Shown here: positions 8,377-23,324 of the stretch, piece by piece | Layout: the number at the start of each line of letters is the position of its first letter | Position numbering within the stretch: position 1 is the first letter of the stretch | Assembly (NCBI GenBank): GCA_017439405.1 | Contig: JAFSJF010000077.1 | Location: 1 to 42,804 of the forward strand | Direction of reading: 5' to 3' | Length of the DNA: 42,804 nucleotides | Origin: Bacteroidales bacterium | GTDB lineage: Bacteria > Bacteroidota > Bacteroidia > Bacteroidales > F082 | Made by a program: the position numbers and the translations under genes | Notes under the pieces: model-generated | Database searches by the model: none | Told to the model about the DNA's origin: nothing | What the model saw: only the letters and a program-made list of their open reading frames with translations

Positions 8377-11300
8377 ATGGAATTGATTGATAACGTCACC
8401 AAGACGCTACGCGATGACTTAACCGTGGAGATTAAGTCGGCAAGCAAGATTTCAATGGCTGCTTGCTGTTTCTCTATTTATGCCTTTCAGGAACTGAAAG
8501 AGCAGCTCAAAGACATCAAGGAATTGCGGTTCATCTTCACTTCGCCCACGTTCACTGCCGAAAAAATCGACAAGCAAAGGCGTGAGTTCTACATCCCGCG
8601 TATCGACCGTGAACGCACCCTTTACGGCTCTCCCTTTGAAGTCCGCCTCCGCAACCAGCTCACACAAAAAGCCATTGCAATCAAATGCGCCGAGTGGGTC
8701 AAAAAGAAAGTCCGTTTCAAGTCAAATATCACAAATAACACCCTCCCCGGATTCATCATTGTTGAAAACGACGACGCGCATACCTATACGCCTGTAAACG
8801 GCTTCACTACAACTGACTTGGGCTGTGAACGAGGCAACAGCATGATGAACTTCGTCAACAAGGTGGATGGCTCAAACGCCCGTCAGTATCTCCGTGTGTT
8901 CAACGAGCTTTGGAACAACGAAAAGGACTTCGCCGATGTCACTGACGACATCATTGATCACATCTCCAACATCTACCGCGAGAACTCCCCAGAGTTCATC
9001 TATTTCGTCACACTCTACAATATCTTCAACGAGTTTCTTGAAGATATTTCCGAGGACGTTCTTCCCAACGAGGCCACAGGATTCAAGGACAGCCAAATCT
9101 GGAACAAACTCTACGACTTCCAAAAAGATGCGGCACTGGCCATCATCAACAAGCTGGAGAAATACAACGGCTGCATCCTTGCCGACAGTGTGGGTCTGGG
9201 TAAGACCTTCACCGCACTGGCCGTCATCAAATACTACGAGACGCGAAACAAGAATGTCCTGGTGCTCTGTCCCAAGAAACTTTGCGACAACTGGATGACC
9301 TATCGCACCAACTACATCACTAATCCCATCGCAGGCGATAGGCTTGCCTATACCGTGTTGTTCCATTCCGACCTTTCGCGTGTTGGTGGCCGCTCCAATG
9401 GCTTGGAACTGGAGAAAATCAACTGGGGCAACTACGACCTGGTTGTGATTGACGAGTCGCACAACTTCCGCAACGGAGGCAAGCTTTCAAGGGATGATGA
9501 TGACGATGACCCACGCGAGAACCGTTACTTGCGCCTGATGAACAAGGTGATTCGTGCCGGAGTGAAAACCAAGGTGCTGATGCTCTCGGCCACACCCGTC
9601 AACAACCGCTTCAACGACCTCAAAAACCAGCTTCAGCTGGCCTACGAGGGCGACACCAAAAGGATGGACGCTCTGCTCAACACCAACACTTCAATTGACG
9701 ACATCTTCCGCCAAGCGCAGAAGGCTTACAACATCTGGGCAAAACTCCCCAACGAAAAACGCAACACCGAAAGGCTCCTTGGGATGCTCAGCTTCGATTT
9801 CTTCGAGGTGCTCGATTCGGTCACTATCGCCCGAAGCCGCAAGCACATCGAGGCGTATTACAATACCGAAGCCGTCGGCAAGTTCCCGCTTAGGCTTCCA
9901 CCCATATCGCGCCGTCCCTCGCTCACCGACCTTCCGTCGGCCATCAACTACAACGAAATCTTCAACCAGCTCCAAAAGCTCAACTTGGCTATCTATACGC
10001 CTTCGGAATTTATCCTGCCAAGCAAGATGGCAAAGTATGCGCTCGACCCTGAGACACACGGCGCAGGCCTTTCCTTGGTAGGCCGTGAAATGGGTATCCG
10101 TCGCATCATGTGCATCTTAATGCTGAAGCGTCTTGAAAGCTCCGTCAATTCTTTCCGGCTAACACTGACTCGTTTGCTGAAGCTCATTTCCAACACTATC
10201 GATACGATTGACCGCCATGAAGCTTATATCAATGTGGAAGAGGTTGATGATTACGATTTCGACATTGAAGACTCCGACAACGATGCCTTTGTGGGCACCA
10301 AGAAAAACAGGATTGCCTTGGAAGACATCGACTATATCAGCTGGCGGCAATACCTCCAGAGCGATAAGGAAGAGCTGGAGCTTACCCGCTTGATGCTCGA
10401 CGACATCACCCCTGAGCACGACAGCAAGCTTCAGCAGCTCATTGCCGACCTTCGCGACAAGTTCGCTCATCCCATCAACGGCGACAACAAGAAGGTGCTC
10501 ATCTTTACGGCCTTCTCCGATACCGCCGTCTATCTCTACGACAACCTTGCCAAACCTATCAAGCAGAAATATGGAATGGACACCGCTCTCGTTACTGGCG
10601 ATGTGGAAGCGCGTAGCACTCTGAAACTGAAAGAAAAACTTGACTTCAACAAGGTGCTGACCCTCTTTTCGCCCATTTCCAAGGAAAAGGAGTCCATCTA
10701 TCCCAATATTCACGAAGAGATAGAAGTCCTCATCGCCACCGACTGCATTTCCGAAGGTCAGAACTTGCAGGATTGCGACTACCTCATCAACTACGACATC
10801 CACTGGAACCCTGTGCGCATCATCCAGCGCTTCGGTCGTATCGACCGTATCGGCTCCAAAAACGACGTCATCCAGCTGGTAAACTACTGGCCAGACATGA
10901 CGCTTGACGAGTATATAGACCTCAAAGGCCGTGTCGAGGCCCGTATGAAGGTCTCTGTGCTCACCTCCACAGGCGACGACAACCCCATTTCACCTGAAGA
11001 GAAAGGCGATTTGGAATACCGCAAGGCCCAACTGAAGAAGCTTCAGGAAGAAGTCGTCGACATTGAGGAGATGAACAACGGCGTTTCCATTATGGACCTT
11101 GGCCTTAACGAGTTCCGCTTGGACTTGCTCGAATATATGAAGACCCACAAAGACGTGGAGCATACGCCCTTTGGCCTTCATGCCGTGGTGGGTCACAACG
11201 AGTTCACCGAGCCAGGTGTCATCTTTGTGCTGAAGAACCGCAACAAAGGCGTCAACATCGACAAAAAGAACCGTCTGCATCCATTCTATATCGTTTACCT

Positions 11301-11610
11301 TCGCAACGACGGCTCAGTGGTCGTCAACCACCTTTCGCCCAAGGAGCTGCTCGACAAGTTCCGCAGCCTCTGCAAGGGTAGGAATATGCCCCAAACCTCC
11401 TTATGCCGTGAGTTCAACAAAGAAACCCGCGACGGTTTCCGCATGACCCACTACTCCAAGCTGCTGGGCGATGCCATCAACAGCATCATCACGGTGAAAG
11501 AGAACAGCAACATCGACAGCTTCCTTGAAGGCGTTCAGGGCGAGCTGTTCACAAAGGAAATCAAAGGACTTGATGATTTCGAGCTGATGTGTTTCTTGGT
11601 TGTAAAATAG
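8377..11610 (+). CDS. SNF2/HepA-like helicase of a type III-like restriction-modification operon
   Basis: A 1,077-residue superfamily 2 helicase, first gene of the defence operon. N-terminal residues 1-170 resemble the phospholipase-D-like module that precedes many such helicases (ISMAACCFSIYAFQELKEQL...LRFIFTSPTF), but no HKD motif is visible, so nuclease activity is not supported. ATPase motifs: I ADSVGLGKT at about 267-275, II DESH near 359, III MLSATPVNN near 401; motifs V-VI ATDCISEGQNLQDCDYLIN...IIQRFGRIDRIGS near 788-830. The glutamine-arginine motif VI is the SNF2/RapA type. About 250 C-terminal residues are unassigned. The next gene starts 9 nt after its stop. It likely translocates on or remodels DNA for the Mod/Res pair. 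Similar helicases occur in DISARM, but no other DISARM gene is present. Confidence 0.88.
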   Translation: MELIDNVTKTLRDDLTVEIKSASKISMAACCFSIYAFQELKEQLKDIKELRFIFTSPTFTAEKIDKQRREFYIPRIDRERTLYGSPFEVRLRNQLTQKAIAIKCAEWVKKKVRFKSNITNNTLPGFIIVENDDAHTYTPVNGFTTTDLGCERGNSMMNFVNKVDGSNARQYLRVFNELWNNEKDFADVTDDIIDHISNIYRENSPEFIYFVTLYNIFNEFLEDISEDVLPNEATGFKDSQIWNKLYDFQKDAALAIINKLEKYNGCILADSVGLGKTFTALAVIKYYETRNKNVLVLCPKKLCDNWMTYRTNYITNPIAGDRLAYTVLFHSDLSRVGGRSNGLELEKINWGNYDLVVIDESHNFRNGGKLSRDDDDDDPRENRYLRLMNKVIRAGVKTKVLMLSATPVNNRFNDLKNQLQLAYEGDTKRMDALLNTNTSIDDIFRQAQKAYNIWAKLPNEKRNTERLLGMLSFDFFEVLDSVTIARSRKHIEAYYNTEAVGKFPLRLPPISRRPSLTDLPSAINYNEIFNQLQKLNLAIYTPSEFILPSKMAKYALDPETHGAGLSLVGREMGIRRIMCILMLKRLESSVNSFRLTLTRLLKLISNTIDTIDRHEAYINVEEVDDYDFDIEDSDNDAFVGTKKNRIALEDIDYISWRQYLQSDKEELELTRLMLDDITPEHDSKLQQLIADLRDKFAHPINGDNKKVLIFTAFSDTAVYLYDNLAKPIKQKYGMDTALVTGDVEARSTLKLKEKLDFNKVLTLFSPISKEKESIYPNIHEEIEVLIATDCISEGQNLQDCDYLINYDIHWNPVRIIQRFGRIDRIGSKNDVIQLVNYWPDMTLDEYIDLKGRVEARMKVSVLTSTGDDNPISPEEKGDLEYRKAQLKKLQEEVVDIEEMNNGVSIMDLGLNEFRLDLLEYMKTHKDVEHTPFGLHAVVGHNEFTEPGVIFVLKNRNKGVNIDKKNRLHPFYIVYLRNDGSVVVNHLSPKELLDKFRSLCKGRNMPQTSLCREFNKETRDGFRMTHYSKLLGDAINSIITVKENSNIDSFLEGVQGELFTKEIKGLDDFELMCFLVVK

Positions 11611-11619
11611 GAGGTGTGT

Positions 11620-12231
11620 ATGCTCGGATTGCCAAAAAGTACAGAAATAGCGAAGCAACTTCCCAAGAAGGCCATTTACGAGAAGTTCCAGCTGAAGTCT
11701 GCCCAGCGCGACCGCTTCGATGCCGATATCAGCCGTATCGACATCGTGAACATGGTTTCGTCCAACACGGTGCCAGGCTTGAAGGAAGGCGAGCATGTCA
11801 AGGAGTTTTATGTGTTGCTTGTCTCGCTGAAGCGAGAGCTGTATGACGAGAAAAACATCTTGCTTCTGACAAAGTTAATCAAGCAGCACATGGTTTTTGC
11901 CTTGGTGTTTGAGGATATGTTGCGTTTCGCCGTAGTGCACGACAAACTCTTTTCCACTGACTGGGAACCGCTTGCCGATGCTGCGCTTCCCCTGATGGGT
12001 ATTGACATGGACAACGTATGGGAGCACATAGTGACGACCATAGGAGGCTTCGAGGTGATGGAAGGCGTGACCATCGAGGAACAGATAACGATTGATGGAG
12101 AGAGGCAGAAAGTCATCAAGCAGATTGAAACGCTTGAAAAGAAGGTGAGGGCTGAAAAACAGCCTCGAAGGAAATATGAATTGTATCAGCAATTATGCGA
12201 GTTGAAAAAATCATTGAAGGATAACCCATAA
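11620..12231 (+). CDS. DUF4391 domain protein
   Basis: A 203-residue protein of the DUF4391 family, whose genes commonly sit beside Mod/Res and SNF2-helicase genes; its molecular role is not established. It opens with LGLPKSTEIAKQLPKKAIYEKF and ends in a charged coiled-coil-like tail (VIKQIETLEKKVRAEKQPRRKYELYQQLCELKKSL). I choose ATG 11620 over GTG 11614: a strong Shine-Dalgarno GGAGG at 11610-11614 is correctly spaced, unusual for this genome and a sign of translational coupling to the helicase. A second, diverged copy of its C-terminal tail survives at 14345-14492, after the first cassette. Because it is the last backbone gene before cassette 1, its 3' end appears to be one boundary of the exchange site. 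Confidence 0.82.
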   Translation: MLGLPKSTEIAKQLPKKAIYEKFQLKSAQRDRFDADISRIDIVNMVSSNTVPGLKEGEHVKEFYVLLVSLKRELYDEKNILLLTKLIKQHMVFALVFEDMLRFAVVHDKLFSTDWEPLADAALPLMGIDMDNVWEHIVTTIGGFEVMEGVTIEEQITIDGERQKVIKQIETLEKKVRAEKQPRRKYELYQQLCELKKSLKDNP

Positions 12232-12290
12232 AAATCGGCTTTTTTTCGGAAAAACGTATTTGAAAATTACGTTTATTGATGAAAAAGTTG

Positions 12291-12298
12291 TATTTTTG
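12291..12298 (+). promoter_or_regulatory. -7 element of cassette 1
   Basis: TATTTTTG in the block GAAAAAGTTGTATTTTTGCC, nearly identical to the promoter at 21-38. It lies inside the upstream extension of the next open frame (which would read MMKKLYFCL), so translation must start later, at 12327. Together with the AT-rich 95-bp gap after DUF4391 this indicates that cassette 1 can be transcribed independently of the operon. Confidence 0.65.
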
Positions 12299-12326
12299 CC
12301 TTGAATTAGATAATAAACGTAAAATT

Positions 12327-13631
12327 ATGGTTAGCATTGATAGGATTTGTATAGGAGGATATAGAAATATCGACTATTCCGAACTGAATTTGCAGCAATT
12401 GACCGCTTTGTTGGCACCCAACAATTATGGAAAAAGCAATATTTTGAATGCCATCATGTTTGCATCTACATTTCTTCATGCTCCCTCTGATGTGAAAAGA
12501 CAGATGATGAAGGACTCCTCGTGCATTCCTATCAATTCAAAGATTGCTGGAACACCTTTCTATTTTGAAATTGAGGGCAGACTTGAATCGGAAAGATGTT
12601 TTCTTTATAGATACAGTTTCGATTGGTATCAACAAATCGGGAAAGACAAAACGGGGAAAGATGGTCAAATCATTGGTGAATATTTGGGCATCAAGGACGA
12701 AACAAAAGGAAAGCAAAAATACAGGGCAATAATCAATAGGACGCTTGAAAGTGCAAAGTATGATGCAACAGGCCGTTGTAATAAAGAGATTGCCATCAAT
12801 TCCGATGAATTGGTATTGGTTAAATTGACCAACAACGATAATTGGAATTACTTGTCAATTGCCAAAGAAATCATGGAGATTCATGTAGCCTCTGTTGACA
12901 CTATTGCCGATCCCAAAGGTCATTTCGTGCCGCAAAAGATGCTGACCACAGACGGTGTTCAGTTGGTGTATGATGGCTTTACCCAGTATCTTTATCAACT
13001 TAAACAGGAAGATGAAGGAGAGTTTGACTATCTGATTTCTTTGTTGACGGTTTTGGTTCCAACCATTGAATCTGTCCAACCTGTGAAATTAAGTTCGATT
13101 GAAAAAAATGTGGGGAAAGATGTACCTTATGAATTGCCTGATTTGTACGATGTTTATGTAAAGGAAAAATACAACAACCAGCCAACTCCTTTCCGTTTTC
13201 TTTCCACTGGCAGCATGCGCATGTTCTTCTTGGTGACCTCAATCGTTAATGCACGTAAGACGGGCACACAGATTCTTTTGGTTGAGGAATTGGAAAATTC
13301 CATCCATCCTGATTTGATGCAGAGTCTTCTTGAATCGATCCCTTTGTTTATGGGCGACACCAAATTGCTGTTTACTAGCCACTCGCCACTTCTCACAAAA
13401 CACATGGGCTATCAACAATTGTATGTAGGGTTGCCTTCAGATGACGGAGTGGTGGATTTTCGCACCATCAAACGAAGCAAATTGAGAAGCGTGTTGGAAA
13501 TTGCGGGTGCTGGCGAGATGGCCTTGGGTGAGTACTTATTTGAATTGATGCTGGACACAGAGGATGACAAAAGTTTGATAGATGCTTTTTTTGAGAATAA
13601 GCATGTCAAGAAGGGAGGCTCCAATGACTAA
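12327..13631 (+). CDS. Cassette 1 AAA/ABC-type ATPase (OLD/AAA_15-like)
   Basis: A 434-residue SMC/ABC-like ATPase of the AAA_15/AAA_21 group. Walker A is APNNYGKSN at about residues 29-37, with Ala in place of the usual first Gly. The signature-like motif FLSTGSMRM is near 290, Walker B ILLVEELENSIHP near 315-327 and the switch histidine TSHSPLL near 350. Start ATG 12327 is set by the promoter at 12291. Its stop overlaps the next ATG by 8 nt (ATGACTAA), so ATPase and partner are translationally coupled. ATPase plus separate TOPRIM-like protein recalls split OLD, RloAB and PARIS systems, in which the ATPase senses a phage trigger and releases a nuclease; assignment to any of them is not possible from the sequence. 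Base composition is visibly more AT-rich than in the helicase gene, which suggests separate acquisition. Confidence 0.82.
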   Translation: MVSIDRICIGGYRNIDYSELNLQQLTALLAPNNYGKSNILNAIMFASTFLHAPSDVKRQMMKDSSCIPINSKIAGTPFYFEIEGRLESERCFLYRYSFDWYQQIGKDKTGKDGQIIGEYLGIKDETKGKQKYRAIINRTLESAKYDATGRCNKEIAINSDELVLVKLTNNDNWNYLSIAKEIMEIHVASVDTIADPKGHFVPQKMLTTDGVQLVYDGFTQYLYQLKQEDEGEFDYLISLLTVLVPTIESVQPVKLSSIEKNVGKDVPYELPDLYDVYVKEKYNNQPTPFRFLSTGSMRMFFLVTSIVNARKTGTQILLVEELENSIHPDLMQSLLESIPLFMGDTKLLFTSHSPLLTKHMGYQQLYVGLPSDDGVVDFRTIKRSKLRSVLEIAGAGEMALGEYLFELMLDTEDDKSLIDAFFENKHVKKGGSND

Positions 13632-14247
13632 AAAGGGTAAGCAGGAAACGGCGCAAGAAATCAGTGTGATATTTGTCGAAGGTGATGCAGATGAATTGAT
13701 GATACGTCGTCTTCTGGACTACTATGTGGAGAAGGGCTGGAAACGGAAAGACGAAGTTTTCGTTCATAAAACTCATGGCACACCTATGTTTGGCAAGATG
13801 AAAAAAGGATTGGTTAAGATTAGGCAAGACATGGAGGGCAAAGCCCGCTTCAAGGCTGTTTGTTGTGAGTTTGATACTGATGTCTATGTGAACGGCTTTC
13901 AGAAAGAACCTGATTGGGAGTCCATTAGAAAAGAGCTGAAACGATACTTTGGAGTGGTTGAGTTTTGCTGTTTAAGGGCAGAAACAAGCATCGAAAGCTG
14001 GATGCTTGATGATGCAGAAGGGCTTATCGTTGCTCTTGGATTGCCAAAAGCCACAAAGATCAAGGGTGCTACAGGACTCGAGAAAATGGGCAATCTGTTC
14101 CGACTCAATCGTATGTCGTATTCAAGAAACAAGGGCATGGAAAAGATAAAGCCCATTATTGACAAACTGGACATCTCCAAAATCCGCGAAGCAAGAAAAA
14201 AGGAGTTGAAAGAATTTGAGAAACTTTTAGGAGTTGAAATTGAATAA
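13624..14247 (+). CDS. Cassette 1 partner, TOPRIM-like putative nuclease
   Basis: A 207-residue protein whose ATG (13624) lies within the last codons of the ATPase gene. The N-terminus has the TOPRIM pattern: hydrophobic strand then conserved Glu-Gly (ISVIFVEGDADELMIRRLL, residues about 12-30), and a later strand ending in Asp-x-Asp (VCCEFDTDVYV, near 79-89). Further acidic motifs follow in ETSIESWMLDDAEGLI. This layout matches TOPRIM-fold proteins paired with AAA_15 ATPases (RloB, AriB/DUF4435, DUF4276-like); which one is uncertain. It ends in a Lys/Glu-rich helix. In cells it would be the effector, likely acting on nucleic acid once released or activated by the ATPase. Thirteen bases after its stop begins a truncated copy of the mod gene. 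Confidence 0.68.
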   Translation: MTKKGKQETAQEISVIFVEGDADELMIRRLLDYYVEKGWKRKDEVFVHKTHGTPMFGKMKKGLVKIRQDMEGKARFKAVCCEFDTDVYVNGFQKEPDWESIRKELKRYFGVVEFCCLRAETSIESWMLDDAEGLIVALGLPKATKIKGATGLEKMGNLFRLNRMSYSRNKGMEKIKPIIDKLDISKIREARKKELKEFEKLLGVEIE

Positions 14248-14260
14248 ACATAACAAGAAT

Positions 14261-14392
14261 ATGAATAAACTCACCATGCAAACCCACAACATCGTGGACG
14301 AAAACATAAAGAAAATAGCCGAACTCTTCCCCAACTGCCTCACCGAGCAAATCGTTGTCGACGATGAAAGCAAAGCTTCTGCGCCAAATTGA
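14261..14392 (+). pseudogene. Truncated 5' end of mod (first 29 codons), recombination scar
   Basis: The first 87 bases match the start of the intact mod gene at 16446 with only three differences (MNKLTMQTHN through FPNCLTE in both). Identity stops after GAG at 14347; the open frame then runs 15 codons into the DUF4391 remnant and ends at TGA 14390-14392. The bases just before each ATG also agree (AATATGAATAAACTCAC). The near identity means the duplication is recent. Confidence 0.9.
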
Positions 14393-14492
14393 GACACTTG
14401 AAAGGAAAGCCCGATTGGAAAAACAGCCTCGTAAGAAACTGGAGCTGTTTAAACATTTGAAGGAGTTGAAATCATCAATTGGAGAAGGGTGA
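14345..14492 (+). pseudogene. Remnant of a DUF4391 gene 3' end, recombination scar
   Basis: Directly fused to the mod fragment. Read from 14345 it gives EQIVVDDE and, after a one-base shift, KLLRQIETLERKARLEKQPRKKLELFKHLKELKSS ending at TGA 14490-14492. This parallels the intact DUF4391 tail (EQITIDGE..., IKQIETLEKKVRAEKQPRRKYELYQQLCELKKS) but is clearly a different allele. An open frame from ATG 14364 covers most of it. The order mod-start then DUF4391-end is the reverse of the functional operon order, as expected at the joint of two recombined alleles. Confidence 0.87.
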
Positions 14493-14517
14493 AACTGAGT
14501 GGATAATTTATTGAATG

Positions 14518-14601
14518 AATTACGAAATTTCTATAGAAATTGTAATTTTCTTACAAATATCAATTAAATTTATTGAAAAATAGGAATTTTGCTTATTTTT
14601 G
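14518..14601 (+). promoter_or_regulatory. Promoter of cassette 2 with an upstream palindrome
   Basis: The -7 element TATTTTTG is at 14594-14601, with a TTG at 14573-14575 separated by 18 bp. Upstream, 14518-14547 is an imperfect palindrome (AATTACGAAATTTC, TATA centre, GAAATTGTAATT) that could be an operator or a weak hairpin. Transcription would start about 17 nt before the ATG at 14624. Confidence 0.6.
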
Positions 14602-14623
14602 CACCGAATTAAAACCATAAAGC

Positions 14624-15835
14624 ATGATACGAGAATTTTGGGCAGAGAATTATCTCTCGATAAAAAACAGACAAACGTTGAATTTTGAATCCAAGACAAG
14701 TGATGACGAATGGGCTTCTGTTGATTTTGGAGGCGGAAAACGCATTAATAAGCTTGCCGTAATTTATGGCGCAAATGCAGCAGGCAAGTCAAATATACTG
14801 ATGGCCCTCCTAAATGTGTTTGAATTGTTGTTTTCTCCGTGGGAAAACAAAACGGAATCGGTTAGAACAAGACGTCCATTCGCCTTATGCACGGGCAAAC
14901 CCACCCGAATGCATGTTTCGTTCTATGCCAATCGCATCCGCTACGACTATACCATCTCCTATACATCAGAGCATATTATTGATGAGTTGATGGAATGGTT
15001 CCCCAATGGTTCGAAGTCGCTCTTCTATGAACGTAGATTTGTGTCGGACGATTCGCAAGCCACCATTAAATTTGGCCAAAGCGTGGGTTTGTCTGCCAAG
15101 ACAAAAGACATTTTTCTTCAAAACGTGCTAAACAACCACACCGTTCTTTCCTGTTTCGGGAAAAGATCGTTTGAGGCTGATGCCAAACCCATTGCCAATC
15201 TGTATAATTGGATAGGTCGTTACATACATCGATTCGACAATCCTAAGTTCACTTTGGAGACATCGCTCAAGCAGGTGTTGGAGAATGGTAAAGCCAAACA
15301 GTTTTACATCCAAATGTTGGAAAAGGCTGATTTTAACATCGTTGACTTTCATGCTCAAACCGCAATCGAAGATGAAGAACAAACTAAGATATACTTTGAT
15401 TGCAAGGCAGGAGCCGAAACTTTCAGTCTCGGTTTAGACGAACAATCTCAGGGAACCAAGAAGTTCTTGGGTAACTTGTCAACGCTTTATTCCGCTATTT
15501 CAAATCATCACATTTATTTCATTGATGAAATAGACTCGGAGTTGCATGATGATTTGTTGCTGTATTTCTTGAATGCATTTCTGATGAACTCCAACGAATC
15601 GCAGCTTATTTTTACCAGCCAGGAAACTTCCTTGTTGGACGAAGACTTGCTGAATACGCATCGCGACTTTGTTTTCTTTGCGGAGAAGAACCGTGAAGGG
15701 GCATTTTCTGAATATATGCGTGCCGATGAATTCGGTTTGCACAAGAACCTGTCCCTCTACAAATCCTACAGGAACGGTCGTTTGGGGGCCGTTCCCCAAT
15801 TGGGTTCACCCTTATTGTATTTGAACCATGAATAA
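14624..15835 (+). CDS. rloA: Cassette 2 AAA ATPase, RloA-like
   Basis: A 403-residue ATPase of the AAA_15/AAA_21 type typical of RloA (restriction-linked ORF A). Walker A is GANAAGKSN at about residues 49-57, preceded by the usual FWAENYLSIKNRQTLNFE start. The Q/signature segment LDEQSQGTKKFLGNL is near 270, Walker B HIYFIDEIDSELHDDL near 296-311 and the switch region LIFTSQETSLLDEDLL near 326. The TGA-free end overlaps the next gene by 8 nt (ATGAATAA), the same arrangement as cassette 1. RloA/RloB pairs were first named from genes lodged inside type I restriction loci of Campylobacter, so its position inside a type III-like operon fits. Symbol is by family resemblance. Confidence 0.82.
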   Translation: MIREFWAENYLSIKNRQTLNFESKTSDDEWASVDFGGGKRINKLAVIYGANAAGKSNILMALLNVFELLFSPWENKTESVRTRRPFALCTGKPTRMHVSFYANRIRYDYTISYTSEHIIDELMEWFPNGSKSLFYERRFVSDDSQATIKFGQSVGLSAKTKDIFLQNVLNNHTVLSCFGKRSFEADAKPIANLYNWIGRYIHRFDNPKFTLETSLKQVLENGKAKQFYIQMLEKADFNIVDFHAQTAIEDEEQTKIYFDCKAGAETFSLGLDEQSQGTKKFLGNLSTLYSAISNHHIYFIDEIDSELHDDLLLYFLNAFLMNSNESQLIFTSQETSLLDEDLLNTHRDFVFFAEKNREGAFSEYMRADEFGLHKNLSLYKSYRNGRLGAVPQLGSPLLYLNHE

Positions 15836-16442
15836 GAGGATGAAAGAGGCTATTGCCGTCATCGGCGAAGGCATCACGGAATACTACTACTTCAATTCCG
15901 TCAAGGATGAGAACAGGCAGCTCAACCTAAAGCCTTCCTATCCCAAGCACTCCTCCAGCCTGAAAGACCTCGAAAAAGAGATCGTCAAGGCCATCGATAT
16001 GGAGTATTCCTTGATATTTTGTGTGGTGGACATGGACAACAAGAAAGGAGGCAAGGAACGGCAATCGTATGAAAATCTCAAGCGTCGATTTCAAGGGACT
16101 CATAACGTCAAGCGGACAGGATACAAATATGAGATACGTTTTATTGAGACGGAGCGATGCACCGAACTCTTCTTCTTGTTCTATTTCGCCTATACCTCGA
16201 AAAGTTATGGCAACCAGACGGAACTGTTGAACGAGCTGAACAAAAATTGTACCTACGACAAAAGTGAAAAATTCTTCCGCTCCCATGCCTTGCACCAATA
16301 CTTTCAGCAAAATGGTGGCGATTTCATGCAAGCCTTGCGCAATGCCGCCAAATCCATGAAGGAAAAAGAAGAAACTGGCAGGGATTACACATATTCTCAA
16401 ATGGCGCAGCTGTTTGAGGCATTGGGAATTAAAACAAATTGA
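15828..16442 (+). CDS. rloB: Cassette 2 partner, RloB-like TOPRIM protein
   Basis: A 204-residue RloB family protein. Key residues: IGEGITEYYYFNSVK at about 12-26 (the Glu-Gly-x-Thr-Glu motif of RloB/TOPRIM proteins) and FCVVDMDNKKGG near 64-75 (Asp-x-Asp). These form the likely metal site. An acidic ETERCTELFFLFYFAYT segment follows near 105-121, also conserved in RloB-like proteins. ATG 15828 overlaps the rloA stop. Three bases after its TGA comes the mod start codon, so this cassette is joined tightly to mod and may read through into it. The expected role is a nuclease effector controlled by RloA. Confidence 0.83.
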   Translation: MNKRMKEAIAVIGEGITEYYYFNSVKDENRQLNLKPSYPKHSSSLKDLEKEIVKAIDMEYSLIFCVVDMDNKKGGKERQSYENLKRRFQGTHNVKRTGYKYEIRFIETERCTELFFLFYFAYTSKSYGNQTELLNELNKNCTYDKSEKFFRSHALHQYFQQNGGDFMQALRNAAKSMKEKEETGRDYTYSQMAQLFEALGIKTN

Positions 16443-16445
16443 AAT

Positions 16446-18323
16446 ATGAATAAACTCACTATGCAAACCCACAACATCGTGGACGAAAACATAAAGAAGA
16501 TTGCCGAACTCTTCCCCAACTGCCTCACCGAGCGGCTGAACGAGAAGGGGCAGCCCGAAGCGGCCATCGATTTTGACATGCTCCGCCAAGAGCTTTCAAT
16601 AGACATCGTGGAAGGCCCGGTGGAACGCTACCAGTTCACCTGGCCTGATAAGCGCAACGCCATCCGGCTGGCCAACGCACCCACCACCGACACGCTGCGC
16701 CCCTGCCGCGAGGAAAGCGTGGACTTCGACAACACCCAAAACCTCTATATCGAGGGCGACAACCTTCAGGTGCTGAAGCTTCTCCGCGAGAACTACTTGG
16801 GCAAGGTGAAAATGATCTATATCGACCCACCTTACAACACAGGTAACGATTTTGTTTATAATGATGCCTTTGACACCAATAGAAACGAATGGAAACCTAT
16901 TAGTGGAAACTATGATGTGAAAGGAAACTGGCTCAATGACCGATATGACATCAACTCAGAAAGCAACGGCCGCTTCCACACCGACTGGCTCAATATGATT
17001 TACCCCCGACTGAAAGTGGCGAAGGACTTGCTGAGTGAAGACGGAGTGATTTTTATAAGCATTGATGATAATGAGCAAGAGAACTTGAAAAAGGTTTGTG
17101 ATGAAGTGTTTGGTTCTCGGAATTTCATTGCTGAATTGGTTTGGGAACGGGCCTATGCTCCAAAGAACGACGCTCGATTTGTCTCTAACAGCCACGATTA
17201 TATTTTGATGTTCGCGAAAAATATTGATGTTTTCGTGATAGGCAGGCTTGATAGGACAGAAGAAGCAAATGCAAGGTATTCAAATCCTGATAATGACCCA
17301 CGCGGAGTGTGGAAGCCGAGTGATATTTCGGTAAAAACATATAACGCAGCTTGCGATTATCCCATAACGACGCCCTCCGGGCGTATAGTAGAGCCTCCAG
17401 CAGGGCGCTGCTGGAGTCTCTCTAAAAACTCGTTTTTAGAGAGACTCCAGGATAACCGGATTTGGTTTGGTCCAAATGGTGATAGTGTTCCTTCAATGAA
17501 AAGGTTTTTATCAGAATTGAAGTTTGATGGCATGGCACCTACCTCGATTTTGTTCTACAAAGAAGTTGGGCACAGTCAAGAGGGCGCAAAGGAAGTCGTT
17601 TCATTGTTTGGCGACAAAGGCGTTTTTGATGGTCCAAAACCTGTGCGTTTGCTCGAAAGACTTTTGACTTTAGCCAATTTATATGACGATTCAATTATCC
17701 TCGATTTCTTTTCTGGAAGTGCTACAACCGCTCATGCTGTGATGAAACGGAATGCTGAAAAAGACATGAATCTGAAATACATCCTCGTTCAATTACCCGA
17801 AAAAGTCAGTGAAAAGAAAAAAGACCAAGGCTTTTCCACCATCTGCGAAATCGGCAAGGAGCGCATCCGCCGTGCAGGGAAGAAGATCAAGGAAGAATCG
17901 CCATTAACCACACAAAATTTGGATACAGGCTTCCGTGTACTAAAACTCGACTCCAGCAACATGCAGGATGTCTATTACCGCCCGGAGGACTCAACGGAGC
18001 AGACCCTGTTTGAGGACAACATCAAGCCCGACCGCTCGTCAGAGGACTTGCTCTTCCAAGTGATGCTGGAGTGCAACCTGCCGCTGTCCGCCAAAATCGA
18101 AACCGAGAAAATAGCCGGCAAGGAAGTGTTCTCCGTCAACGAGGGCTACCTCATCGCCTGCTTCGACGAAAAGGTGAACGAGGACGTCATCAAGGAAGTG
18201 GCCAAACGTCAGCCCTACTACTTCGTCATGCGCGATAGCAGCTTGGCCACCGACAACGTGGCGGACAACTTTGAGCAGATTTGGATGGCTTATAGTAAGG
18301 ATACGATAAGAAGAATCATTTAG
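16446..18323 (+). CDS. mod: Type III restriction-modification methyltransferase (Mod), N6-adenine, beta class
   Basis: Methylates an adenine in an asymmetric site and supplies DNA recognition for the Mod-Res complex. The 625-residue protein shows beta-class order: motif IV DPPYNTGND at about 127-135, then a long central part, then AdoMet motif I IILDFFSGSATTAHAVM near 417-433. The central target-recognition part contains PITTPSGR...PPAGRCW...DNRIWFG, typical of type III Mod. Base composition changes inside the gene: the ends (to about 16840 and from about 17825) use GC-rich codons like the helicase, while the middle is AT-richer, consistent with a swapped recognition domain. A group of strong hairpins lies at 17371-17450. 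A near-identical copy of its first 29 codons is at 14261. Its intact start lies directly after rloB, and cassette 3 follows it. Confidence 0.93.
   Translation: MNKLTMQTHNIVDENIKKIAELFPNCLTERLNEKGQPEAAIDFDMLRQELSIDIVEGPVERYQFTWPDKRNAIRLANAPTTDTLRPCREESVDFDNTQNLYIEGDNLQVLKLLRENYLGKVKMIYIDPPYNTGNDFVYNDAFDTNRNEWKPISGNYDVKGNWLNDRYDINSESNGRFHTDWLNMIYPRLKVAKDLLSEDGVIFISIDDNEQENLKKVCDEVFGSRNFIAELVWERAYAPKNDARFVSNSHDYILMFAKNIDVFVIGRLDRTEEANARYSNPDNDPRGVWKPSDISVKTYNAACDYPITTPSGRIVEPPAGRCWSLSKNSFLERLQDNRIWFGPNGDSVPSMKRFLSELKFDGMAPTSILFYKEVGHSQEGAKEVVSLFGDKGVFDGPKPVRLLERLLTLANLYDDSIILDFFSGSATTAHAVMKRNAEKDMNLKYILVQLPEKVSEKKKDQGFSTICEIGKERIRRAGKKIKEESPLTTQNLDTGFRVLKLDSSNMQDVYYRPEDSTEQTLFEDNIKPDRSSEDLLFQVMLECNLPLSAKIETEKIAGKEVFSVNEGYLIACFDEKVNEDVIKEVAKRQPYYFVMRDSSLATDNVADNFEQIWMAYSKDTIRRII
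17371..17450 (+). repeat. Three adjacent perfect inverted repeats inside mod
   Basis: CGCCC-TCC-GGGCG at 17371-17383; CTCCAGCAG-GGCG-CTGCTGGAG at 17395-17416; and an 18-bp perfect stem, CTGGAGTCTCTCTAAAAA (17411-17428), with loop CTCG and its exact complement at 17433-17450. The second and third share CTGGAG, so they are mutually exclusive. The DNA still encodes the conserved Mod segment SGRIVEPPAGRCWSLSK...LQDNRIWFG in frame. Confidence 0.9.
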
Positions 18324-18356
18324 AATTATTGTCACGAATAGAATCTGACTTTTTTG

Positions 18357-18364
18357 TATTTTTG
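18357..18364 (+). promoter_or_regulatory. -7 element of cassette 3
   Basis: TATTTTTG in the 61-bp gap after mod, 20 nt before the ATG at 18385. Like cassettes 1 and 2, this gives the pair its own start of transcription. No convincing -33 TTTG at standard distance. Confidence 0.55.
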
Positions 18365-18384
18365 CATCAATATAATAATCATTT

Positions 18385-19524
18385 ATGACTGAATATCTTA
18401 AAATATCAAATTTTGGTCCGATAGTTGAAGTTGAATTGGACAATATAGCGCCATTCACCATCTTGGTTGGCGAGTCTGGTAGCGGTAAGAGTACGATTCT
18501 GAAAGTATTATCCCTTTTTAGATGGATATACAAAAGGGTTGTTCTGCGCTCGTATGTAAAACAAGCTAATATTAATAAAACGGGTATCGGTTTCCAAATG
18601 AAAACCCTTCTTAAAACGTCGTGTTTGGAGGAATATTTGAAGACCGATACAGAAATTGTTTACAGAAGAAATGATTATGAGATATCCTATAGAAACAAGA
18701 AGTTGAATGCCCAATCAACGATTCCAGTTTCGCAATTGAGCTTGGAAAAGATATGTTTTGTCTCCGACAAACGTTCTATGATACCGGATTTCCTTGACAA
18801 TAAAATGGAACGTAGAATAGCCAATTTCCATTTGCAAGATACGATGGACAATTTTTTGCTGGCAACCAATTCCATTCAATCATTCCCTGTAGATTACCTG
18901 AATGTTAGGCTTTCCGTGGTGAAAACAAATGCAGGAATCCAGTACATGATACATGGAACAAGCGAAGAGAAGTATTCCATAAAACTGAAAAACGCTTCTT
19001 CTGGAACACAAACTGTACTTCCGTTGAGTATGATAGTGGAGTATTATGCACGGCATTTTGACCCTAAAAAATCAATGGATTCCTCGTTGTTCCAATATTT
19101 GCAAGACAATGACAGACTGAAAGATTTCAACACGGCAAAGAACATCGGTGAAATTGAGCAGAAAAACGTTCACATACTAATTGAAGAGCCTGAATTGAGT
19201 TTGTATCCGGAAAGTCAATGCCATCTGATAGATTATTTGGTGGACCGTTGCTTCTTCCATCGCCCGCAATATAATATGACATTGATGATGGCCACTCACA
19301 GTCCGTATATAGTGAATTATATCAATCTTTTGCTCCGTAGAGAACAGAAACTTGTGCCCGATATGGCGGATGTGAGGATAAAACCGTCTGATGTAGATAT
19401 ATATCAGATAGTGGATGGACAAGCCTTGTCGCTGAAAATAGAGACAGAGGGAAACGTGTTGATTGACGCCCGATTGATGTCTGATCCTATTTCTGAAATC
19501 TATCGCGAATACAATAGTTTGTGA
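18385..19524 (+). CDS. Cassette 3 AAA/ABC-type ATPase
   Basis: A 379-residue ATPase of the AAA_15/AAA_21 class, distinct from the other two. It begins KISNFGPIVEVEL, with Walker A GESGSGKST at about residues 29-37. The signature-like ASSGTQTVLPL is near 208, Walker B ILIEEPELSLYP near 265-276 and the switch histidine MMATHSPYIVNYIN near 305. The small insert between ATP-binding halves (about 170 residues) suggests a compact SMC-like head without a long coiled coil. It is AT-rich relative to mod's ends and to res. The partner starts 2 nt after the stop (or overlaps it by GTGA if GTG 19521 is used). ATPases of this type form many anti-phage pairs; which signal it senses cannot be told. Confidence 0.82.
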   Translation: MTEYLKISNFGPIVEVELDNIAPFTILVGESGSGKSTILKVLSLFRWIYKRVVLRSYVKQANINKTGIGFQMKTLLKTSCLEEYLKTDTEIVYRRNDYEISYRNKKLNAQSTIPVSQLSLEKICFVSDKRSMIPDFLDNKMERRIANFHLQDTMDNFLLATNSIQSFPVDYLNVRLSVVKTNAGIQYMIHGTSEEKYSIKLKNASSGTQTVLPLSMIVEYYARHFDPKKSMDSSLFQYLQDNDRLKDFNTAKNIGEIEQKNVHILIEEPELSLYPESQCHLIDYLVDRCFFHRPQYNMTLMMATHSPYIVNYINLLLRREQKLVPDMADVRIKPSDVDIYQIVDGQALSLKIETEGNVLIDARLMSDPISEIYREYNSL

Positions 19525-19526
19525 TT

Positions 19527-20180
19527 ATGGAGGACTTGTTGAAAAACCAGTTTGTGAGCGTTATTAATGCCGAACGCATAGGAACAGCTCCTCCTTGGAC
19601 TGCAGAGCCTGTTGTTCGTTATGAAGATATTTCAGAGCGTGAATTTGATGTTGTTGACTCAAAAGAAGACCCTACTACAATCAGACGTGAACTTGGACGA
19701 GGAACAGCGTCTTACATTAATGGGAAGGGTTATGTCTTAAGATTTGTCTCTTTTGACGATTATCTTCATCAATTTATTTATGATGATGGTCGAGGGAACA
19801 CTCAAAAGAGTATGTTGAAACCACATACGAAAATGGCGGATTTACTTGTCTATGACAGGAGTGGTGACAGCGTATATTTTTTAGTGCATGAACTTTGTGT
19901 TGGTAGTATTGCCAACAAGCGTGCGAAAGCAAAGATTCAATTAAATTCCACGCTGAACATGTTGTATAAGTCAAATGAAATTAAAGATTTTATCAACTCT
20001 TTTGATAACAAGATTTGTTATTTGTCTGCTGACGACGGAAGAATTGCCACTCCAAATCAAGTTGCAGAGGGTTTTATGAAGTCGTATGATATTATCCCAG
20101 ATCCTTCTCCTTTTACGTTTGGCAAAATAAAGACATGCGGTTTTACCGCCTACGAGACAAGTATTATTGATTTGAAATAA
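19527..20180 (+). CDS. Cassette 3 partner, unrecognised protein with a possible PD-(D/E)XK-like core
   Basis: A 217-residue protein I do not recognise. ATG 19527 is chosen; GTG at 19521 is the alternative. No signal peptide or membrane segment is seen. The middle has a pattern that could be a degenerate PD-(D/E)XK nuclease: KMADLLVYDRSGDSVYFLVHELCVGS near residues 100-125 (Asp, then Glu at the end of the next strand) followed by NKRAKAKIQLNSTL (Lys and Gln in helix positions). The canonical E-x-K triplet is absent, so this is weak. The C-terminal part (NKICYLSADDGRIATPNQVAEGFMKSYDI) gives no hint. By position, it takes the role of RloB or the TOPRIM protein in the sister cassettes, hence a candidate effector or antidote. 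Confidence 0.6.
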   Translation: MEDLLKNQFVSVINAERIGTAPPWTAEPVVRYEDISEREFDVVDSKEDPTTIRRELGRGTASYINGKGYVLRFVSFDDYLHQFIYDDGRGNTQKSMLKPHTKMADLLVYDRSGDSVYFLVHELCVGSIANKRAKAKIQLNSTLNMLYKSNEIKDFINSFDNKICYLSADDGRIATPNQVAEGFMKSYDIIPDPSPFTFGKIKTCGFTAYETSIIDLK

Positions 20181-20186
20181 GTATTC

Positions 20187-20240
20187 GTAAAATTCACATT
20201 CAACGTACAACAACTCCAGTCCGTTACGGTACAAACCATC
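20187..20240 (+). pseudogene. Diverged remnant of a res 5' end
   Basis: Read from 20187 this gives VKFTFNVQQLQSVTVQTII, which aligns codon for codon with the true start of res, MKFKFKIQQYQSDAVESTV; 36 of the first 48 bases agree. It lacks a start codon and lies in the same frame as res with no stop between, only 7 nt after the cassette 3 partner stop. It mirrors the mod fragment behind cassette 1: a truncated start of the next backbone gene, then the real gene. Confidence 0.72.
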
Positions 20241-20273
20241 ATAGCGTCGCCATCAAATTTAGTATCTAATCTT

Positions 20274-23200
20274 ATGAAATTCAAATTCAAAATACAGCAA
20301 TACCAGTCCGATGCGGTGGAAAGCACCGTTTCGGTTTTTGCGGGTCAGCCCTCGCGCGACGCTTTCCAATTCAGAAGAGATTTGGGCAAGCGCAAGTCTC
20401 AGCAGAAAATGGAATTCGAAGACGAATTTGTGGGCTACCGCAATAGCGACATCGAGCTGAGCGACCAGCAGCTTTTAGACAGCATCCGCAAGATTCAAGA
20501 CGGTCAGGACATCAAGCAGTCGCCCCGCCTTGTGAGCGACTTGGGTCGCCTCGGGTTGGACATCGAAATGGAAACAGGCACGGGCAAGACCTACGTCTAT
20601 ATCAAGACCATGTTTGAGCTGAACAAACGCTACGGCTGGAACAAGTTCATTGTGGTAGTGCCGTCTATTGCCATCCGCGAAGGTGTCAACAAGAGCTTCA
20701 CCATGCTCGAAGACCATTTCATGGAACATTACGGCAAGAAAGCCCGTTTCTTCATCTACAACTCGTCCAACCTCCAGCAACTGGATTCTTACTCCAGCGA
20801 TGCGGGCATCAATGTGATGATCATCAACACGCAGGCCTTCGCCAAGGATTTGAACGAGGATAAAAAGACCAAGGCAGGCTTAATTATCTACTCTGAGCGC
20901 GACGACTTCGGCAGTCGCAAGCCCATCGATGTGATCGCCGCCAACCGTCCCATCATCATCATGGATGAGCCTCAAAAGATGGAAGGTCAAGCCACCCAAA
21001 AAGCCCTGCGTCGCTTCAACCCACTCTTTTTGCTCTATTACTCGGCCACCCACAAAACCCAACATAACTGCATCTATGCCCTCGATGCGCTGGATGCCTT
21101 CAAACAGAAACTGGTGAAGAAGATTCAGGTGAAAGGCTTTGAAGTGAAAAACCTCAAAGGCACCAGTTCCTACCTCTATCTCGACGACATCATCCTTTCC
21201 AAGAACCAGCCCCCAATGGTGCGTCTCGAAATGGAAGTAGAAACCAACTCGGGCGTGAAGAAAATCATGAAGAAACTGGGGCATGGCGACAGCCTCTATA
21301 GCGCCTCAGGACTTTTGGAATACAAGGACTTCACCATTTCCGACATCGATGCTTTCCACAACACCGTCACCTTCCTCAACGGCGTGAAAATTGCCAAAGG
21401 CGAAGTGTATGGCGACAGCAGCGAAGAAGCCATGCAGCGCGTCCAAATCCGCGAAACCATCGCTTCGCATTTCGAAAAGGAACGCGACCTGTTCAAGCGG
21501 GGAATCAAAACCCTGTCGTTGTTTTTCATCGACGAAGTGGCCCACTACAAGAGCTACAACAGCGAAGGCGAAGAGGTGCATGGCCCGTTCTGGAAAATCT
21601 TCGAGGAAGAATACACTCGGATATTGAACGAAAACTTGTCCCTATTTGAAGATGACTATCAAAAGTATCTCCTCCAGTTCGATGCCTCGCAAGTCCACAA
21701 CGGCTATTTTTCCATCGACAAGAAAGGCCACGCGGTCAACAGTGCTACAGGTCGCGGCACCGACATTTCCGATGATATTTCAGCCTACGACCTCATCCTG
21801 AAGAACAAAGAGCGTCTGCTGAGCTTCGACGAGCCTACCCGCTTCATCTTCTCACACTCCGCCCTTCGTGAGGGCTGGGACAATCCCAACGTGTTCCAGA
21901 TTTGCACCCTTCGTCACGCCGCTTCTGCTATCGCCAAGCGTCAGGAAGTGGGCCGAGGCCTCCGCATCTGTGTTGACCAACAAGGCAACCGCATGGACTT
22001 GGAAGAACTGGGTGAGGAGATGGTACACGACATCAACAAGCTCACCGTCATTGCCAACGAAAGCTACAAGACTTTCGTGGCTGACCTGCAGCGCGAGACC
22101 AAAGATGCCCTTCGCGAGCGTCCCAACAAGGCCACTCCAGAGTATTTCCAAGGCAAGATGATCACTTTGGACGGCGAGAAATACACCTTGGACGCTCAGG
22201 ATGCAATGGCTATCTGTGGCTGGCTGGCAGGAAACGATTATTCCGACGTGAACTACCAAATCACGCAGAACTTCAAGGACGACTTGCAGAACGGAACGCT
22301 GGAGCCAATGGGCAAGAAACTGGCTGGCAAGGAAGAGCAGGTCATCACGCTCATCAAAGCCCTCTTCGACGATAGCATTTCTATCGAAGATATGATTGAG
22401 GACGGCAATGCATCCGCCGCAGCCACCAACCGCCTCAATGAGAACTTCAAAAAGAAAGAGTTCCAAGCCTTGTGGAATGAAATTAACCACAAGTACGTCT
22501 ATACCGTACATTACGACAGTAACGAGCTGATAGAAAAAGCCGTGAACGCCATCAATGCAGAGCTGATGGTCACCGAATTGAAATATGTGATGACCATTGG
22601 CGACCAGGAGTCTGTAGACACCTTTGGCGACACCAAAACCACCACCCAGAAGTTGGGAACGGTAAGCACTTCCTCGGTGAAATACGACTTGGTGGGCGAA
22701 GTGGCCAAGCGCACCACGCTCACCCGTCGCACGACGGCCACCATCCTGAAGAAGACACTCCCCAGCAAGTTGGCCATGTTCCGCAACAATCCCGAGGAGT
22801 TCATCAAGAACGTGAGCCGTATCATCCGAAACGAGAAGGCCACCATGATTGTGGAACATATCCAATACGACCGCATCGACCAGACCTACGACAGCGATAT
22901 TTTCACCAAAGACAAACACGCTAAGAATGTGTCGAAGGCCTATGCTGCGAAGAAACATATTATGGATTATGTCTTTACCGACGGCTACGCAGAGGAAAGT
23001 GTTGAAATGAAGTTTGCTAAAGACCTTGATGCCGCCACCGAAGTTTGTGTCTATGCCAAGTTGCCACGTTCCTTCCAAATCCCTACGCCCGTGGGCAACT
23101 ACGCTCCTGACTGGGCTATCGCCTTCAACCAAGGCGCGGTAAAACACATCTTCTTCATCGCTGAGACCAAAGGCTCAATGGACTCAATGCAACTGAAGAA

Positions 23201-23324
23201 AGTGGAAGAAGCAAAGATTGGTTGCGCCGAAAAGCTCTTCAACAACCTTTCCACTTCCCATGTCCGTTATCACAAGGTGGATAGTTACCAGACCATGCTG
23301 GATATAATGAAAGCGATGGATTAA
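20274..23324 (+). CDS. res: Type III restriction endonuclease subunit (Res)
   Basis: A 1,016-residue DEAD-type helicase-nuclease that, with Mod, translocates on or senses unmodified DNA and cuts it. Motifs: I METGTGKTYVY at about 98-108, II IIIMDEPQKMEG near 227-238, III YYSATHKT near 255, VI AKRQEVGRGLRI near 555-566. The C-terminal nuclease has YAPDWAIAF...HIFFIAETKG near 942-966, the PD...(D/E)XK arrangement with an intact Ala-Glu-Thr-Lys. All key residues are present, so the enzyme should be active. ATG 20274 fits the family start; an unterminated, in-frame 29-codon remnant lies just upstream but has no start codon. It is the last gene of the island; speA follows in convergent orientation 25 bp later. 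Confidence 0.94.
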   Translation: MKFKFKIQQYQSDAVESTVSVFAGQPSRDAFQFRRDLGKRKSQQKMEFEDEFVGYRNSDIELSDQQLLDSIRKIQDGQDIKQSPRLVSDLGRLGLDIEMETGTGKTYVYIKTMFELNKRYGWNKFIVVVPSIAIREGVNKSFTMLEDHFMEHYGKKARFFIYNSSNLQQLDSYSSDAGINVMIINTQAFAKDLNEDKKTKAGLIIYSERDDFGSRKPIDVIAANRPIIIMDEPQKMEGQATQKALRRFNPLFLLYYSATHKTQHNCIYALDALDAFKQKLVKKIQVKGFEVKNLKGTSSYLYLDDIILSKNQPPMVRLEMEVETNSGVKKIMKKLGHGDSLYSASGLLEYKDFTISDIDAFHNTVTFLNGVKIAKGEVYGDSSEEAMQRVQIRETIASHFEKERDLFKRGIKTLSLFFIDEVAHYKSYNSEGEEVHGPFWKIFEEEYTRILNENLSLFEDDYQKYLLQFDASQVHNGYFSIDKKGHAVNSATGRGTDISDDISAYDLILKNKERLLSFDEPTRFIFSHSALREGWDNPNVFQICTLRHAASAIAKRQEVGRGLRICVDQQGNRMDLEELGEEMVHDINKLTVIANESYKTFVADLQRETKDALRERPNKATPEYFQGKMITLDGEKYTLDAQDAMAICGWLAGNDYSDVNYQITQNFKDDLQNGTLEPMGKKLAGKEEQVITLIKALFDDSISIEDMIEDGNASAAATNRLNENFKKKEFQALWNEINHKYVYTVHYDSNELIEKAVNAINAELMVTELKYVMTIGDQESVDTFGDTKTTTQKLGTVSTSSVKYDLVGEVAKRTTLTRRTTATILKKTLPSKLAMFRNNPEEFIKNVSRIIRNEKATMIVEHIQYDRIDQTYDSDIFTKDKHAKNVSKAYAAKKHIMDYVFTDGYAEESVEMKFAKDLDAATEVCVYAKLPRSFQIPTPVGNYAPDWAIAFNQGAVKHIFFIAETKGSMDSMQLKKVEEAKIGCAEKLFNNLSTSHVRYHKVDSYQTMLDIMKAMD

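Follow-up and report, generated by a model that had tools for sequence, protein, structure and literature searches.

Why would a restriction operon carry three pairs of unrelated genes between its own genes, and how could such pairs have been added? The question is raised by a locus in the Bacteroidales bacterium genome GCA_017439405.1 (159 contigs), of which the entire contig JAFSJF010000077.1, 42,804 nucleotides (nt) long and here called the window, was analysed. Ten open reading frames (ORFs) lie on its forward strand from 8377 to 23324, in the order SNF2-DUF4391-aA-aB-bA-bB-Mod-cA-cB-Res. An original prediction, made from the DNA letters, had described a four-gene backbone and three ATPase/partner cassettes in this order on one strand, and all ten ORFs were indeed found. 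Two of the cassettes (a and b) occupy the junction, or seam, between DUF4391 and mod, and one (c) the seam between mod and res. Judged by its genes and motifs, the operon is very probably a type III-like restriction-modification system that carries other defence genes as modules.

A stable backbone with two hypervariable seams

Relatives of the locus were collected through Res. Among 173 genomes of the family, 40 had a match at E 1e-50 or better, and in 25 of these (the window's own genome included) it was full-length at 61-100% identity; a scan of genome contigs contributed the best 80 of 200 matching stretches. The survey as a whole covers the closest Res relatives only. Removal of duplicates left 87 distinct res loci, the window included (labels such as L031 denote surveyed loci). 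Mod was in range in 77 of the 87 (10 loci had no Mod in range), DUF4391 together with Mod in 52, and SNF2 together with DUF4391 in 51. ORFs were called by a simple procedure and counted in the seams from 90 amino acids (aa) upwards, families were clustered by BLAST (f numbers), and a seam of 250 nt or less was taken as empty.

By this measure the SNF2-DUF4391 seam is empty in 45 of 51 loci, the DUF4391-mod seam in 7 of 52 and the mod-res seam in 17 of 77. In the inspected loci that have no mod-res cassette, the mod stop and the res start lie a few nt apart, and in L033, L064, L069, L087, L121, L137 and L138 this seam is merely 1-3 nt wide. Almost all ORFs in the seams (174 of 177) are on the operon strand, the other 3 running against it. 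The 174 same-strand genes fall into 63 families, 31 of them singletons, and five families are shared between seams. The 52 DUF4391-mod seams show 26 distinct contents and the 77 mod-res seams 42 (all empty seams counting as one content, and the four mod-res seams that lack a called gene being counted separately); at most 7 genes are found in the two seams combined, in the 52 loci that show both. Seam DNA is lower in G+C than the backbone in 68 of 72 loci. In the window, cassettes a, b and c stand at 0.403, 0.429 and 0.381, below SNF2 (0.505), DUF4391 (0.474), Mod (0.474) and Res (0.505).

The check proposed with the original prediction was to tabulate what lies in each seam, and the same two positions indeed hold many different genes or nothing. 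Unrelated defence genes thus lie inside a defence operon whose relatives are empty or differently filled. The outcome that would have spoken for a fixed system, the same three pairs in all relatives, was not seen: none of the other loci among the 87 matches the window in either seam, and seam content varies even between close backbones. Although res is 89-93% identical in DNA among the window, L031, L032 and L033, no two of them share the same content in either seam. Between the window and L031, DUF4391 and cassette a are 98% identical over 2,571 nt; L031 then carries f18-f51 where the window has cassette b, and f50-f1-f0 where the window has cassette c, so that whole blocks are replaced. For loci with a res neighbour at least 85% identical (33 DUF4391-mod and 48 mod-res seams, leaving out the four mod-res seams of more than 250 nt without a called gene, L068, L081, L131 and L132), nearest neighbours have no content in common in 23 of the 33 and 29 of the 48 seams, respectively, and share part of it in 7 seams of each kind.

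Mod holds a third variable zone. Among 15 close relatives its conservation is 0.16-0.5 at aa 201-440 and 0.63-0.98 in the flanks, while Res is conserved at 0.94-1.0 except in its last segment. The target-recognition region of Mod (about aa 200-440) is swapped between loci whose flanks are much more alike. In L122, mod leaves its frame at a nine-G tract (oriented positions about 6800-6860, at the end of the called mod ORF), which looks phase-variable.

Gene-end scars between the cassettes

The cassettes had been described as lying exactly between intact backbone genes. Their placement in the seams holds, but the gaps are not clean: 14261-14492 contains fragments of mod and DUF4391, and about 20190-20238 there is a weak res-like fragment (Table 1). 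The mod stub and the DUF4391 stub join at four shared nt, GAGC, which are present both in mod and in DUF4391 of the L083 type. In L083, cassette b directly follows that locus's own DUF4391. Because an L031-like mod runs into an L083-like DUF4391 in the window, and L083 has cassette b after DUF4391, the arrangement in the window is DUF4391 - a - mod stub - DUF4391 stub - b - mod.

Such gene-end scars are not confined to the window. When profiles of the backbone gene ends were searched against 85 seam junctions of at least 25 nt (E < 0.05), scars were found at 12 of the 21 internal junctions of this length, the window included, and every scar hit was on the + strand. Eight internal mod-res junctions (L031, L032, L037, L043, L075, L078, L083 and L104) carry 5' stubs of res, seven of which begin at the res ATG, with ends at nt 42-68; 3' stubs of mod occur in L104 and L071, and 3' stubs of DUF4391 in L097 and L107. 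In L104 the mod stub comes directly after the res stub, the same signature as in the window, both hits being weak (E 2e-3 and 3e-3). L107 has a further DUF4391 stub between its last cassette and mod.

Six control profiles, taken from internal or far-end stretches, gave 0 hits in the 85 junctions, and with the junctions shuffled (first-order Markov, 50 sets) there were 4 hits in total at E < 0.05 and 0 at E < 0.01. In a search of whole seams with 16 profiles, one internal tile (D4391_i2) was hit at E < 1e-3, because the window scar itself reaches into this tile. Two candidates were dropped: a "mod scar" in L122, where the match is the remainder of the locus's own mod beyond the nine-G frame break, and an SNF2 match in L067, which is the rest of a broken gene. 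BLAST matches in L104, L107, L108, L116 and L129 to the first bases of the L131 res, an ORF judged to be start-extended, were left uncounted.

Backbone proteins, cassettes and promoter-like elements

Type III systems act as a Mod-Res complex that cleaves DNA at two sites in inverse orientation. Their Mod proteins are beta-type N6 methyltransferases, in which DPPY precedes an F-x-G-x motif and a variable region lies between the two. The window Mod shows this order, with DPPY at 127, FFSGSA at 421 and the variable aa 201-440 between them. Res has the superfamily 2 helicase and C-terminal PD-ExK nuclease of a type III Res (ResIII and RE_endonuc matches; GTGKT, DEPQ and PD...ETK).

Table 1. Features of the operon in the window (positions in JAFSJF010000077.1).
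Feature	Position	Strand	Basis or remark
Backbone 1: SNF2-type helicase	8377..11610	+	Pfam SNF2/Helicase_C; PADLOC C3a139, E 2.7e-126; GLGKT, DESH
Backbone 2: DUF4391 protein	11614..12231	+	PF14335, E 1e-28
Cassette a, aA: AAA_15/AAA_21 ATPase, HEC-01A/AriA-like	12276..13631	+	AAA_21 2.5e-19, AAA_15 3.7e-16
TATTTTTG promoter-like element before cassette a	12291..12298	+	consensus match only
Cassette a, aB: partner	13582..14247	+	no Pfam family; invariant EGDADE and E-x-D-x-D, alignment of four relatives
Scar: first 88 nt of mod	14261..14348	+	97.7% to L031 mod, 96.6% to own mod
Scar: DUF4391 3' end, another allele	14345..14492	+	84% to L083 over 106 nt; 76% to own over 96 nt
TATTTTTG promoter-like element before cassette b	14594..14601	+	consensus match only
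Cassette b, bA: AbiLi ATPase	14624..15835	+	PADLOC AbiLi 2.6e-63
Cassette b, bB: RloB/AbiLii	15828..16442	+	PF13707 5.7e-23; AbiLii 3.4e-13; alignment of bB
Backbone 3: Mod, type III methyltransferase	16446..18323	+	MTase_III E 2e-227; target-recognition region about aa 200-440 hypervariable
TATTTTTG promoter-like element before cassette c	18357..18364	+	consensus match only
Cassette c, cA: AAA_15 ATPase, PDC-M29A-like	18385..19524	+	AAA_15 5.7e-18; PDC-M29A 2.1e-42
Cassette c, cB: partner without family, GTG start	19521..20180	+	Pfam/PADLOC
Weak scar resembling nt 4-52 of res, between cB and res	20190..20238	+	80% over 49 nt; profile E 3e-3
Backbone 4: Res, type III endonuclease subunit	20274..23324	+	REase_III E 2e-293; EcoP15I Res E 2e-70

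The best PADLOC model for aA is HEC-01A (1.2e-25), followed by AriA (5.7e-23). A 433-aa relative in L045 suggests that aA probably starts at ATG 12327 rather than at TTG 12276. The end of aB is mosaic, its last 96 nt (14158-14253) being 88.5% identical to L045 where the proteins are merely 46% identical. Cassette b is an AbiL pair, an AbiLi ATPase coupled to an AbiLii/RloB partner, with an overlap of 8 nt between bA and bB. The motifs of aB (EGDADE and E-x-D-x-D) and of bB we take to be TOPRIM-like; unlike in aB and bB, no such motif was seen in cB. The description of each cassette as an ATPase with a small partner is borne out in that there are three such pairs, but their partners are not all of one kind. 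Searches of PDB profiles gave no useful match for aB, bB or DUF4391. Among 295 genomes of the order the only cB found was the window's own copy, and viral contigs contained none; in a comparison of five proteins, those paired with cA relatives in L181 and L182 showed weak similarity to cB (E about 2e-4 to 3e-4). Outside the operon, a PD-(D/E)XK family transposase (PF12784) lies at the contig start (17-1048).

A TAnnTTTG element of its own had been predicted for each cassette. Provided that aA starts at ATG 12327, such elements (TATTTTTG) are found 20-28 nt upstream of all three cassette starts, at 12291, 14594 and 18357. Across all seams, TAnnTTTG occurs in 24 of the 55 upstream gaps of at least 30 nt, compared with a mean of 2.9 and a maximum of 7 in 300 single-base shuffles; on the opposite strand of the same gaps it occurs in 9. 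The other 119 of the 174 seam genes fell outside this test, their upstream gaps being too short. The elements may act as promoters of the genes that follow them.

Defence genes of many kinds in the seams

Pfam was used to annotate one representative of each of 46 of the 63 seam families, and PADLOC was added for 26 of them. By our own classification, 27 of the 46 families contain a domain characteristic of defence proteins, toxins or abortive-infection systems. They include an AbiL pair, AbiJ-type (three), AbiGi, Fic/SoFic (two), RhuM, AlbA_2/Schlafen (two), zeta toxin and TIR families, as well as PIN, KwaB, GmrSD_N, DUF4238, DUF4365, DUF2971, DUF1016, AAA_14-DUF4143, HerA-type and Ppl-like proteins. 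The window ATPases aA and cA are also among them, together with a second AAA_21 pair whose partner matches DUF4276 below the Pfam cut-off. The other 19 families, aB and cB included, have no or uninformative matches (among the latter TPR, pentapeptide, DnaJ-type zinc domain, 23S rRNA intervening protein); these 19 seam families without defence-type annotation are defence candidates by position alone.

These contents bear on the original reading of the operon as a platform for interchangeable back-up immunity. The variable and sometimes empty seams agree with a platform, but the cassettes are not always ATPase pairs and are not confined to the operon. As a rule for the contents the two-gene ATPase cassette fails, as the frequent families RhuM (f5) and Fic (f10) occupy a seam alone. 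Confinement fails as well, relatives of bA, aA and cA being found elsewhere too, some beside other methylase or helicase loci. Of the 173 genomes, 14 (the window's own included) have a relative of bA with at least 48% identity, and in 9 of these it lies in the window's operon type; for aA the corresponding numbers are 7 and 5. The nearest cA relatives lie elsewhere, two of them in a methylase-nuclease seam of another operon. In L181 (5591-18353) and L182 (5503-16524), a different SNF2-methylase-nuclease-like operon has cA-like ATPase pairs in its seams, two of them in L181. L171 and L172 carry an AbiL pair (74-85% identical to the cassette b family) beside another SNF2-like helicase, and L172 adds a 975-aa protein with methylase motifs.

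The backbone also occurs in other hosts. In bare four-gene form it is present on plasmids of E. coli, Methylotuvimicrobium and Mycolicibacterium and in L069 and L121. Among 5,426 complete E. coli genomes, 10 have a near match, nine covering at least 80% of DUF4391-mod-res and the tenth being cut; the span is 5.7-6.0 kb in eight (5.7 kb in the query) and 7.1 kb in one that carries an IS30-type element. On the Aeromonas plasmid pE31A, the DUF4391-mod seam holds a gene with an ATP-binding domain, and the mod-res seam an AAA ATPase + DUF4276 pair. Plasmid pHX3 has the same kind of pair between mod and res and an ATP-dependent endonuclease before mod; SNF2 and DUF4391 are not among its listed genes. 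Backbone genes are also present in eighteen DUF4391 stretches from other genomes of the phylum; several of these stretches have seam genes as well (L158 is one), and several are cut by contig ends. In a second type III lineage (Res of 881-883 aa; L056, L057, L058 and L059), Res is 86-89% identical and the mod-res seams have no genes in common. Other type III operons were rejected as a negative control for seam variation, since they vary too.

Proposed exchange and stacking of defence blocks

Taking the survey and the scars together, we hold it highly likely that the operon is a modular carrier, in which the backbone is kept and defence blocks are exchanged and stacked at two seams via homologous gene ends. 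According to this model, the four backbone genes would be kept while three places vary, namely the DUF4391-mod seam, the target-recognition region of Mod and the mod-res seam. We infer homologous recombination as the process, with the following order of steps. Short same-strand runs of defence genes would be exchanged as blocks by recombination in the conserved gene ends that flank them. Stacking would occur when a donor piece, consisting of the DUF4391 3' end, a cassette and the mod 5' end, or of the mod 3' end, a cassette and the res 5' end, is placed next to a cassette already present, with homology at one end of the join and micro-homology at the other. Joining of this kind is termed homology-facilitated illegitimate recombination. 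It would leave a stub of the downstream gene start between the cassettes and, in the fullest cases, also a stub of the upstream gene end. Since the stubs remain between the cassettes, each cassette would again be flanked by homology arms. The same structure could also be left by a circular intermediate, or by tandem duplication followed by replacement. One may go further and speculate that the operon is an integrase-free cassette array, in which the gene ends flanking the seams are reusable homology arms and captured cassettes are stacked, swapped and passed between strains and species; on this broader proposal we consider the chances evenly balanced.

Several observations weigh against the modular carrier model. 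Nearest neighbours have the same content in 3 of 33 DUF4391-mod seams (2 of them both empty) and in 12 of 48 mod-res seams (8 both empty), and most loci come from contigs of metagenome-assembled genomes (MAGs). Nine of the 21 internal junctions of at least 25 nt have no scar, and the 46 shorter internal junctions, many of them within gene pairs, were covered by the whole-seam search only and yielded no further one. The 12 scars are not all independent, since those of L043 and L075 seem to stem from a single event and f0 follows five of the eight res scars; the scars of the window res (E 3e-3) and L071 (6e-3) and the res-then-mod pair of L104 are weak. Finally, the seams are bare on the plasmids examined from E. 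coli, Methylotuvimicrobium and Mycolicibacterium, and the backbone therefore does not need cassettes.

How the cassettes relate to restriction is a separate matter, on which a passenger explanation has to be weighed. The seams may be a tolerated landing place, where defence genes profit from the persistence and horizontal spread of the operon and have no functional tie to it. The mechanistically mixed contents (Fic, RhuM, AbiJ, AbiL, TIR, KwaB, PIN, GmrSD_N) speak for this, as do the relatives outside the operon (for bA, at the 48% identity threshold, in 5 of 14 genomes, and for aA in 2 of 7) and TAnnTTTG in 24 of the 55 upstream gaps, which is expected of self-contained units. However, a functional partnership would account no less well for the placement mainly in two of three seams, the 174 of 177 ORFs on one strand and the many Abi-type families, and we rate the passenger explanation as a serious possibility that falls somewhat short of an even chance. 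By contrast, we give next to no credence to a fixed ten-gene machine with the ATPase pairs as obligate subunits: the tight spacing and single strand in the window would suit it, but the survey refutes it, the window content being found in no other locus of the 87 in either seam, and L069, L121 and some plasmids of other phyla carrying just the four backbone genes.

The precise seams and modular arrays also resemble integron cassettes, which might be moved by a dedicated enzyme, be it through integron-like attachment sites, a transposon or an integrase. However, among the representatives examined, one for each of 46 of the 63 families, none has an integrase or transposase domain, and no terminal inverted repeats were found around the window cassettes. 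Instead of a constant site, the junctions contain pieces of the neighbouring genes of varying length (res up to nt 42-68, 88 nt of mod). Such an enzyme is thus improbable. That chimeric metagenome contigs joined unrelated operons is more improbable still. In its favour, the window genome consists of 159 contigs and has 5.2% contamination, and MAGs make up most of the relatives; but the same families recur in the same seams across genomes, and seam genes are present in the named isolates L095 (Alistipes), L106 (Segatella albensis) and L129 (B. caecigallinarum) and on complete Aeromonas plasmids.

Within the modular carrier, the most likely role of the cassettes is that of independent systems for abortive infection or second-line defence, as their domains suggest, and they may serve as a back-up when restriction fails. 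If the operon is indeed an integrase-free array, restriction specificity, set in the recognition region of Mod, and back-up effectors would be reshuffled together in one operon. Beyond neighbourhood statistics, genomic variation in a single operon here marks genes as exchangeable immune parts. The scars are a physical record of how the parts were added, and give a model for the renewal of abortive-infection genes without the enzyme of a mobile element.

Comparison with known systems

Defence genes nested in modification systems are established by the candidates embedded in Hma loci and by the PDC families (PMC12988326, PMC10855318). The Hma system itself is described in PMC8565338, and the "guilt-by-embedding" work on HEC and PDC (Payne et al., preprint) is cited in PMC12988326 and PMC12255303. 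Within type I loci, DarTG2 is nested between hsdS and hsdR (PMC12255303) and prrC in ecoprrI (PMC12255303, PMC12707154), and the hsdS-hsdR site has been termed a potential recombination hotspot (PMC12255303, PMC12707154). Nucleases lie inside BREX loci (PMC12839542), and a review treats PrrC and PARIS as guardians that respond to the inhibition of restriction (PMC12707154).

The operon shares with the HEC/PDC cases the placement of defence genes between DNA-modification genes, and its seam genes match PDC-S01, S04, S05, S31, S32, M29A and HEC-01A; it differs in its host, an SNF2-DUF4391 type III-like operon, and in its two filled seams, stacked arrays and gene-end scars. Like the type I loci with prrC or DarTG2, it has genes of abortive-infection type between restriction genes, but those are type I systems with one nested module in the examples given, and the available parts of their accounts describe no scars. 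Cassettes a and b may be akin to PARIS in that each has an ATPase and a partner read as TOPRIM-like, and AriA models match aA (5.7e-23) and bA (1.2e-17); however, the partners match no AriB model, and the best models are HEC-01A for aA and AbiLi for bA. The bA/bB pair matches AbiLi and AbiLii and, unlike AbiL, is nested in a restriction operon. Mod and Res have the architecture and motifs of EcoP15I-like type III systems, to which the window adds SNF2 and DUF4391 in front, plus the cassettes. A literature search with limited coverage of subscription papers and bioRxiv gave, in the portions available, no account of a two-seam operon or of gene-end scars; DUF4391 was named in one of the papers searched. 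The nesting of defence genes in restriction loci is known; new are their stacking in two seams of this type III-like operon and the accompanying scars.

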